Shown here in pieces: positions 30,864-33,407 of a DNA stretch of 51,300 bases; position 1 is the first letter of the stretch, and each line of letters opens with the position of its first letter. A model generated the notes under the pieces. That model was given only the letters and a program-made list of their open reading frames with translations. It was not told the origin of the DNA and did no database searches. This DNA is from an uncultured Acidimicrobiaceae bacterium (GTDB lineage: Bacteria > Actinomycetota > Acidimicrobiia > Acidimicrobiales > Aldehydirespiratoraceae): contig CAJWHS010000009.1 of the NCBI GenBank assembly GCA_913041415.1, positions 1 to 51,300 on the forward strand, written 5' to 3'. The position numbers and the translations under genes are program-made.

Positions 30864-31709
30864 ATGGAACCGACCCCCTTGCGTTTCACCGCATCCGATG
30901 TCGTGATCGCGGCCGATCGCCGCGGCGATCCGCGTGACCCGCCGGTGTTCTTCCCGCACGGTGGCGGTCAGACCCGTCGCTCGTGGGGCAAGGCCGCTGA
31001 GGTGGTGGCCGAACGAGGCTGGTGTACCTACACCCTCGATTCTCGGGGGTACGGCGAGAGCGACCGGTCGGCCGAGGGGAACTACTCGTTGCAGGACTTT
31101 GCGCTGGACCTGATCGCGATCGCCGACGCCGACGGGTCAAACCCGGTGATCGTTGGGGCATCGCTCGGCGGACTCGCCAGTCTGCTTGCGATGGGGCGCA
31201 GACGCCCTGGGCTCGGTCGCGGTCTGGTGTTGGTCGACATCGTCCCCGAGATGGAGCAGGCCGGCACGGACCGCATCGGCGCGTTCATGTTGCGCCATGT
31301 CGAAGCCGGGTTTGCCTCGTTGCAGGAGGCCGCCGTCGCCGAGTTCAGCCCTCGGCCCGGCCGAATGATCGACCCTGACAGCCTCCGCAAGAACCTCCGG
31401 GAGCGCGACGGCCGCTGGTACTAGCACTGGGACCCGGTCTTCATGTCGTCGATCAAGCGGAGTAGCGGCGGCTTGGAGGTCTTCGCTCAAGATGTTCTGA
31501 CTGAGTGCGCCCGCGCGATCGATGTCCCCAAGTTGCTCGTGCGTGGCGGGATGAGCGACGTCGTCACCGACGAGGCCGCCCGACGCTTCGTCGCCGCCGT
31601 GCCCGGCACCGGCTACGTCGACATCGCCGGTGCCGCCCACATGGTTGCCGGTGACAAGAACGACGTGTTTCGGTCGGCGGTGCTCGGCTTCCTCGCCGAG
31701 CTCGACTAA
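30864..31709 (+). pseudogene. Alpha/beta hydrolase interrupted by one in-frame TAG
   Basis: One continuous reading frame of about 281 codons apart from a TAG at 31422-31424. Before the stop (186 residues): PVFFPHGGGQTRRSW, LDSRGYGESDRS and the nucleophile elbow GASLGG. After it, in the same frame: HWDPVF, RGGMSDVVTDE with the acid residue and IAGAAHMVAG with the catalytic His. The junction reads RWY-stop-HWDP; family members commonly have 'RW.WHWDP' here, so TAG most simply replaces TGG (Trp) by a single base change. The truncated product would lack Asp and His. Starts 55 bases from the divergent amidohydrolase gene. Confidence 0.85.
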
Positions 31710-33188
31710 TCAGCGCAGATAGATGTACTGGTCGTCGTTCAAGATGGCGTCGATCCCGGCGTCTCGTAGGGCGCCCGCCAGGTCGAACGGCTCGGAGATT
31801 TCAAAGCGCTGCATGCCGTGGTCGGCGAGCACGATGACCGCCGTGCGGTCGAGCTTTCCGGCGGACTCGATCTCGGCGAGCACATCGCGCATGCGCGCAT
31901 CGGTGTCGCGGATGGCGGCGCGAAGGATCTCCGAGTGCGGCCCGCCGGCGTGCCCGCAGGCGTCAGTGAGGTTGAATGTGAACCAGCTATAGCGGGGGAG
32001 CGCCCCGAACTCGCCCCGCCAGATGTGTAGGGCCTCGTTGCGGGAGTGGGCGTCGTAGATCGATGCGTTGCGGAACTCCTTCACCGCCATGAAGTCCTCG
32101 GTTCGGTGCAGACGTCGGTCGGCGTCGGAGAGGGTGGGGATCGGTCCGTTCGTCGTCATCTGGGCATAGGTGGAGTAGTCGGCGCCGCGATCGCCGTATT
32201 CGTAGGTCGTGGCGGTGAACGCCTCGGGCTCGTGACGCTTCAGCGCCTCGTGGATCGTCTCCACGCCGGGGGCCAGGTGATCGCGGGCTCGGATCATCTG
32301 GTGATAGTCGAGCAGGTCGACATGGACGCCTCGGTTCCGGTCGTACCAAGTGTTGTGGAGTACTCCCGACCGTCCGGGGAACACACCGGTGCACTGTGTC
32401 GTGTGGTTGGCCAACGTGGCGGTCGGCAGCGCCGAGATGCAGCCGTTTCGGTAGGAGGTGCCGCGTTCGATCAGTGAGGCGATGCCAGGAGCCTCCCCTT
32501 TGTCGACGGCGTCGTGCAGCGCGTTGGGGTTCACTCCATCCCACAGAAACACGACCACATGGTCGGGACGCTCGTCGGGGTCGAGGAGTTCGGTGATCTC
32601 GTCACCGTCCTGCATCGCGAGCCGGGCTCCGTTGCGGGCGCGACTGCGGCCATCGACCCCATCGCCGGACGGAATGCCGAGCAGGGCGGCAATCGTCGGC
32701 GCGACATCGACAGTGCGTAGATGCTTGGGCACGATGCCGCAGGGCCGGATCCCAGGCCCGGCCGCAATGAACGGCGCCCGGGCTTGGATACCGCCGAGCG
32801 AGCCGTGGTTCCCAACGCAGTCGTGAAACATCTGCTGGGGCGACCACATGACGGCGGCGTCGGGTGCGTGTTCCGCGTCGAAGTACTGCACGATCGATTC
32901 GTACGCAAGGGGCGTGGCGAGTTCGCCAAGCGGCACCCCCTCGACCGTGACCTCGGCCTCGGTCCCGATGCCCTGATCGAGCGCCTGGTTCCGCAGCGGG
33001 TGGTTGCCGGAATCAGCGAGGATCTCGATCGACCCTTCGGGAGCTTCGCAGAAATCGACGGCGCCGTTGGCTGACGCGGCCCGGAATCCGTCATCGGTTC
33101 GCATTACCACGGTGTCGACGTAGCGGGTCATGGACGAATCGGTGAGGAACGATTCGAGCCGGGAGATGGGGGTATCGGCGAGGGGCAC
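31710..33188 (-). CDS. Alkaline-phosphatase-superfamily hydrolase with circularly permuted motif order
   Basis: 492 residues, probably a phosphodiesterase/phosphatase with two metals. In NPP-, iPGM- and sulfatase-like enzymes the order is Asp, nucleophile Ser/Thr, Asp-His, Asp-His, His. Here what is normally the C-terminal His block comes first: NHGSLGGIQARAPFIAAGPGIR (His128), then TVDVAPTIAALLGIP. Next come VVFLWDGVN (Asp217), PTATLANHT (Thr258, the nucleophile site), TDACGHAGG (Asp409, His413) and LADHGMQR (Asp456, His457). It ends shortly after at DDQYIYLR. All metal ligands are therefore present but rotated. No signal peptide. It ends directly against the broken hydrolase gene. Confidence 0.85.
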   Translation of the reverse strand: MPLADTPISRLESFLTDSSMTRYVDTVVMRTDDGFRAASANGAVDFCEAPEGSIEILADSGNHPLRNQALDQGIGTEAEVTVEGVPLGELATPLAYESIVQYFDAEHAPDAAVMWSPQQMFHDCVGNHGSLGGIQARAPFIAAGPGIRPCGIVPKHLRTVDVAPTIAALLGIPSGDGVDGRSRARNGARLAMQDGDEITELLDPDERPDHVVVFLWDGVNPNALHDAVDKGEAPGIASLIERGTSYRNGCISALPTATLANHTTQCTGVFPGRSGVLHNTWYDRNRGVHVDLLDYHQMIRARDHLAPGVETIHEALKRHEPEAFTATTYEYGDRGADYSTYAQMTTNGPIPTLSDADRRLHRTEDFMAVKEFRNASIYDAHSRNEALHIWRGEFGALPRYSWFTFNLTDACGHAGGPHSEILRAAIRDTDARMRDVLAEIESAGKLDRTAVIVLADHGMQRFEISEPFDLAGALRDAGIDAILNDDQYIYLR

Positions 33189-33260: not shown

Positions 33261-33299
33261 GTGAAGTGCTGCAGCAACATCCTGCTTCTTCTCGTGTAG
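33261..33299 (+). CDS. Leucine leader peptide for leuA attenuation (12 residues)
   Basis: GTG-initiated peptide MKCCSNILLLLV with four consecutive leucine codons (CTG CTT CTT CTC, 33282-33293), preceded by Ile and followed by Val, so all three branched-chain amino acids are sampled. It has no Shine-Dalgarno and begins where the upstream promoter should start transcription, which implies leaderless translation. The stop codon abuts a perfect hairpin, and an intrinsic terminator lies before leuA. Attenuation of leuA by such leaders is established in other actinobacteria. Slow translation of the Leu run at low Leu-tRNA is the presumed signal. Confidence 0.8.
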   Translation: MKCCSNILLLLV

Positions 33300-33324
33300 G
33301 CGAGCGCCGCATACCGGCGCTCGC
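33300..33324 (+). promoter_or_regulatory. Leader hairpin directly after the leader peptide stop
   Basis: GCGAGCGCCG (33300-33309) and CGGCGCTCGC (33315-33324) form a perfect 10-base-pair stem with a 5-base loop. The left arm begins at the base after the leader stop codon, so a ribosome at the stop would block it. Probable pause or switching hairpin of the attenuator. A short alternative pairing, CGCTCG (33318-33323) with CGAGTG (33340-33345, one G-U pair), would open the terminator loop and is a weak antiterminator candidate. Confidence 0.7.
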
Positions 33325-33326
33325 TG

Positions 33327-33366
33327 AACCCTCCGTGCCCGAGTGGCCCGGAGGGTTTCTTGTTTT
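33327..33366 (+). terminator. Intrinsic terminator of the leuA attenuator
   Basis: AACCCTCCG (33327-33335) pairs perfectly with CGGAGGGTT (33349-33357) over a 13-base loop and is followed by TCTTGTTTTT. It sits between the leader peptide and leuA, about 42 bases before the leuA ATG, so it would stop transcription of leuA unless antitermination occurs. Confidence 0.85.
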
Positions 33367-33407
33367 TCCGTACACTTTCCACCTGACCGACTCCCTGGGA
33401 GCGACCC

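Follow-up and report, generated by a model that had tools for sequence, protein, structure and literature searches.

The window, by which we mean the whole 51,300-nucleotide stretch of DNA analysed, carries at 31710-33188 on its minus strand a single ORF for a protein of the alkaline phosphatase superfamily. Along the chain the catalytic residues come in the order H128 (GNHGSLGG), D217 (FLWDG), T258 (LPTATLANH), D409 and H413 (NLTDACGH), and D456 and H457 (ADHGM). The parts of the ORF and the codons of the active-site residues are located as follows; all of the residues listed are invariant in the 49 distinct proteins that were aligned.

31710..33188, minus strand: whole ORF of the permuted alkaline-phosphatase-superfamily protein, 492 aa, GTG start
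32637..33188, minus strand: residues 1-184, matching the C-terminal half of canonical relatives (second hhalign match and C-half tree)
32805..32807, minus strand: codon of H128, last ligand in canonical order
32565..32636, minus strand: linker, residues 185-208, from the old C-terminus to the old N-terminus (rotation-scan plateau)
31713..32564, minus strand: residues 209-492, matching the N-terminal half of canonical relatives (PF01663 positions 1-250 and N-half tree)
32538..32540, minus strand: codon of D217, first ligand in canonical order
32415..32417, minus strand: codon of T258, predicted nucleophile
32352..32354, minus strand: codon of N279, an Asn 21 residues past the Thr
31950..31964, minus strand: D409 to H413, metal ligands
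31818..31823, minus strand: D456 and H457, metal ligands

Residues 1-184 comprise a helix/strand subdomain, the H128 block and VDVAPTIAALLG. The linker contains a Q193-D194-G195 motif that is invariant in the alignment of homologues, and the half with D217, T258, D409/H413 and D456/H457 stops at the strand YIYLR. The original prediction had named the seven ligands, each of which an exact check found at the residue number given, and had placed the usual last His block ahead of D217 and T258, which was confirmed by the residue positions and by matches to PF01663 and to a known structure. The type I phosphodiesterase / nucleotide pyrophosphatase profile (PF01663) aligned to residues 211-488 over positions 1-250 of its 342 with 114 bits, against a curated cut-off of 23, so that only the first three quarters of the profile were matched, at the C-terminus of the protein. 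The best PDB match by sequence, the Xac NPP (2gsn), was recovered by phmmer in three out-of-order pieces: residues 225-286 matched the start of the chain (19-79), residues 383-461 its middle (144-223), and the His-block residues 126-176 its end (322-372), the last piece being weak on its own (5.8 bits).

Profile-profile comparison with hhalign was used to compare 26 aligned members of the family with 17 actinobacterial proteins of canonical order, and the family alignment was cut at 26 points, each rotated form being rescored. In native order the best alignment covered 264 columns with a score of 190, and a second match joined residues 27-181 to canonical columns 366-506, thus pairing the first half with the canonical end. 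Rotation at residue 205 raised the score to 275 over 450 columns; the scan showed a plateau at residues 175-215, in the linker, with scores of 272-275 and 439-450 columns only for cuts at 175-210, and fell steadily on either side. With another canonical set, of more uniform makeup, rotation lifted the score from 139 to 189. When the family was rotated at 205, all seven ligands fell in one colinear alignment with the canonical protein L047, in which H128 pairs with the His of SDHGSL. A profile search with the halves swapped had been proposed as a check, and its outcome is that the family is colinear with canonical relatives only if rotated at the linker. The new termini lie right after the strand YIYLR, past DHGM, and right before the helix RLESFLTD, which in canonical relatives follows the strand equivalent to YIYLR. 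A Pfam search with the rotated single window sequence extended the PF01663 match hardly at all (from 1-250 to 1-256), and the evidence for permutation is therefore evidence at the profile level.

With respect to family membership, the protein has the seven metal-site residues of PF01663, including the Thr nucleophile, and lacks the canonical order in which the last His follows DHG. Because H128 precedes D217, we file it as a permuted PF01663 variant and not as an ordinary member. It shares with the family (Xac NPP 2gsn, ENPP1-7) the seven ligands, the Thr nucleophile, the Asn at T+21 and DHGM, and differs in that its halves are swapped and that the half now in first place carries an additional helix/strand subdomain. 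The nearest canonical proteins, actinobacterial relatives of the L047, L048 and L118 type, have the N half first and the C half last; they are about 20% identical to the window protein and, once it is rotated, colinear with it, including the subdomain ahead of the His block. The likeness to PafA and PhoY alkaline phosphatases and to phosphonoacetate hydrolase PhnA lies in the nucleophile half, the order of the window protein being permuted; these partial matches (PafA, NF042991, 2e-12, 46 bits against a cut-off of 650; PhoY, NF051873, 2e-11, 43 against 1000; PhnA, TIGR02335, 4e-8, 33 against 408) score far under the NCBIfam curated cut-offs, and equivalog identity with any of the three was rejected. 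A sulfatase assignment (PF00884) was likewise rejected: the score is borderline (25.1 versus 25 bits), the formylglycine-type Cys/Ser-x-Pro-x-Arg motif is absent, and T258 in PTATLANH occupies the nucleophile position.

Four ORFs of 1181-1389 aa (L062-L065) show the half order C-N-C-N. They begin with a hydrophobic stretch resembling a signal peptide, and two of them (L062 and L065) end in a weak carboxypeptidase-regulatory-like tail. Both ligand sets are present in all four, the second-copy His of L063 (GEHGH) having been read by eye. In Pfam searches the inner N-C pair comes out as a single canonical domain (in L062, residues 293-678 on profile positions 2-340). In a tree of N halves the window family takes in the second N of these proteins (99/99) but not the first; in a tree of C halves it is the first C that joins the window family (91/97), the second lying outside. 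In the joint tree the window family forms one group (95/86), to which the outer pair of the C-N-C-N proteins is sister (100/99), and a single clade for the inner and outer pairs is rejected (AU p 0.009). Given these placements and this rejection, the C-N-C-N proteins are most readily explained as a permuted domain whose two halves flank a canonical one. Such an arrangement could have come from a partial tandem duplication or from insertion of a canonical copy in the linker of a permuted gene. The original prediction had proposed that the permuted gene arose by duplication and trimming. This route, in which a canonical gene would be duplicated in tandem and the outer halves then lost, is plausible insofar as tandem C-N-C-N relatives exist; the direction of events is one that we infer.

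A second permuted group, here called P2, is found in several families of the phylum; its ORFs are about 550-700 aa long, and many of them carry a hydrophobic segment at the N-terminus. Its His block (GGWSHSGPWPYLQ) lies ahead of VWDGGG, none of the seven ligands varies among 16 proteins, and rotation at its own linker lifts the score from 139 to 173. The N part ends at canonical column 371 in the window family and at column 408 in P2, hence the breakpoint of P2 lies later in the chain. In the best trees P2 stands apart from the window family, whose nearest neighbours include canonical proteins. We tentatively suggest, as a reading that may well prove wrong, that permutation arose at least twice in this one phylum, at different breakpoints, and that the C-N-C-N proteins still embody the intermediate stage of a tandem duplication. 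A single old permutation that gave rise to both groups, with breakpoints that diverged by later trimming, is a serious possibility, if not quite a probable one: the AU test allows all permuted proteins to form one clade (p 0.146 for N halves, 0.415 for both halves), and the window family and P2 are colinear in native order over 331 columns, against which stand the differing breakpoints and the separation in the best trees. An origin by a single permutation would be compatible with our preferred account of the window ORF, that of a natural circular permutation, and the two are not exclusive. One locus (L068, G147:C4:630000-646000) holds an array of tandem paralogues, with four to five consecutive P2-type ORFs in 16 kb. 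Elsewhere P2 and canonical-order PF01663 genes (L111 and L112, G130:C142:10500-37500) share a 27-kb neighbourhood, where the origin of P2 might be sought.

In NPP and PafA, two metal ions are held by Asp and His ligands, a Thr serves as nucleophile, and an Asn 21 residues past this Thr touches the phosphoryl group. The position of N279 we take to be that of N111 in Xac NPP and N100 in PafA. The window protein starts with the half that is C-terminal in canonical relatives; some 25 residues of linker then connect the old ends and lead into the canonical N-terminal half. Together the halves would form a single ordinary domain of AP type, with a two-metal site. T258 and the invariant N279, at the spacing seen in NPP and PafA, point to ordinary AP-superfamily hydrolysis, in which T258 would become covalently phosphorylated and water would hydrolyse this phospho-enzyme intermediate, with the phosphoryl group held by N279. 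The activity is thus most likely a two-metal, Thr-nucleophile phosphoester hydrolysis, and the likeliest substrate would be a phosphodiester or phosphomonoester inside the cell. Inspection of the 492-aa ORF by eye revealed no evident signal peptide, and for this reason the enzyme is probably cytoplasmic. An AlphaFold2 model, made from only five near-identical sequences (the window protein and four close relatives), reached a pLDDT of 36, and so it is from the alignment that we infer assembly of one active site within one chain. In order of sequence an intramolecular and a domain-swapped assembly look alike, and the two half-domains could in principle sit in a swapped dimer, the first half completing the site of the neighbouring chain. 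We regard this arrangement as improbable, since the linker of about 25 residues with its invariant QDG is conserved and the AP fold tolerates new termini, as seen in an engineered, active, permuted E. coli alkaline phosphatase (as cited in PMC2395249).

The permuted gene is conserved well beyond the window. Contiguous homologues of the same order span 94% to about 36% identity, and in a profile search 55 of the 296 genomes of the class held a single open frame over profile positions 1-6 to 484-485 of 485. Full-length copies were found in 13 of 198 genomes of another actinobacterial order, and further contiguous copies with the same order occur in other families of the phylum; full-length relatives with this order are among the homologues at 36-62% identity. 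Among the viral contigs searched no relative was found, and the plasmids searched gave a distant match in Thermomicrobium only. Compared with four relatives, dN/dS is 0.09-0.13 over the whole gene and is low in the first half (0.11-0.21) as well as in the second (0.05-0.10); purifying selection acts on both halves. The window's own genome has one copy of the gene, and neither a second copy nor a missing half was found there; separate PF01663 genes are also present in that genome, one of which fits the whole profile in canonical order. It is extremely improbable that the permuted order is an accident of one genome (a fusion of two gene fragments, as the original prediction itself had cautioned, a pseudogene or an assembly chimera): the gene is broken in two other genomes (L025/L029 and G150), so decay or misassembly does occur locally, but dozens of independent genomes have a contiguous ORF of identical order, every ligand is retained in the 49 proteins, the gene is under purifying selection and its own genome has no donor copy. 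With this conservation across families, a broken gene, a chimera and a fragment fusion were ruled out. The view that this is not a broken gene is thus borne out by the conserved order, kept ligands, low dN/dS and missing donor; the comparison of homologues that had been suggested as a check found the order retained in dozens of independent genomes; and circular permutation itself is supported by these same-order homologues, by the gain on rotation at the linker and by the lone copy in its own genome. We are highly confident that the ORF at 31710-33188 encodes an intact and conserved member of the type I phosphodiesterase / alkaline phosphatase superfamily that has undergone natural circular permutation, and, to judge from the sequences compared, the swapped order is an old, conserved trait of a whole bacterial enzyme family.

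Active circular permutants of E. coli alkaline phosphatase have been engineered (Kojima et al. 2005, cited in PMC2395249, PMC3281007); as far as these citing texts describe them, they are laboratory-made and have their termini elsewhere than in the window protein. AlgX and AlgJ are naturally permuted SGNH hydrolases, with catalytic blocks reordered to H-S-G-N (PMC9487903), a parallel case of block reordering in which fold and chemistry are unrelated to those of the window protein. In a survey of superfamily outliers, carbohydrate phosphatases and one further superfamily are listed with circular permutation, the AP-like fold with an insertion only (PMC3779223). The original prediction knew of no described permuted subgroup of this kind, and in the open-access literature we likewise found no natural circular permutation in the alkaline phosphatase superfamily; an earlier description elsewhere is possible. 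The permuted enzyme family is thus apparently undescribed so far. Enzyme evolution and promiscuity have a model system in the alkaline phosphatase superfamily. With a conserved permuted family and its canonical, tandem and otherwise cut relatives all present in one phylum, duplication as a route to permutation can be tested stepwise. There is also a consequence for annotation, since profile searches see the second half only, so that permuted proteins look truncated or receive a partial name.

Comparison of neighbouring genes across relatives gave no pathway or functional lead. Synteny of the permuted gene with leuA, an alpha/beta hydrolase, an amidohydrolase and others is limited to the window organism's own family. 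In one other genome the window-family gene is split at about residue 280 across two contigs (L025 and L029; G055 C26 end and C17 start), each piece running into unrelated sequence, by insertion or misassembly. The alpha/beta-hydrolase gene at 30864-31709 (plus strand) contains an in-frame TAG at 31422-31424, where seven relatives with intact copies (L031-L034, L124, L132 and L133) have Trp (WHWDP); either the gene has locally become a pseudogene or the window genome contains a sequencing error here. On the plus strand, a small ORF at 33261-33367, encoding VKCCSNILLLLV followed by a stop, lies just before leuA (33408). Rfam gave no match for this element, which has a run of four Leu codons and is followed, ahead of leuA, by two GC-rich hairpins and a T run; it looks like a leucine leader peptide with an attenuator.
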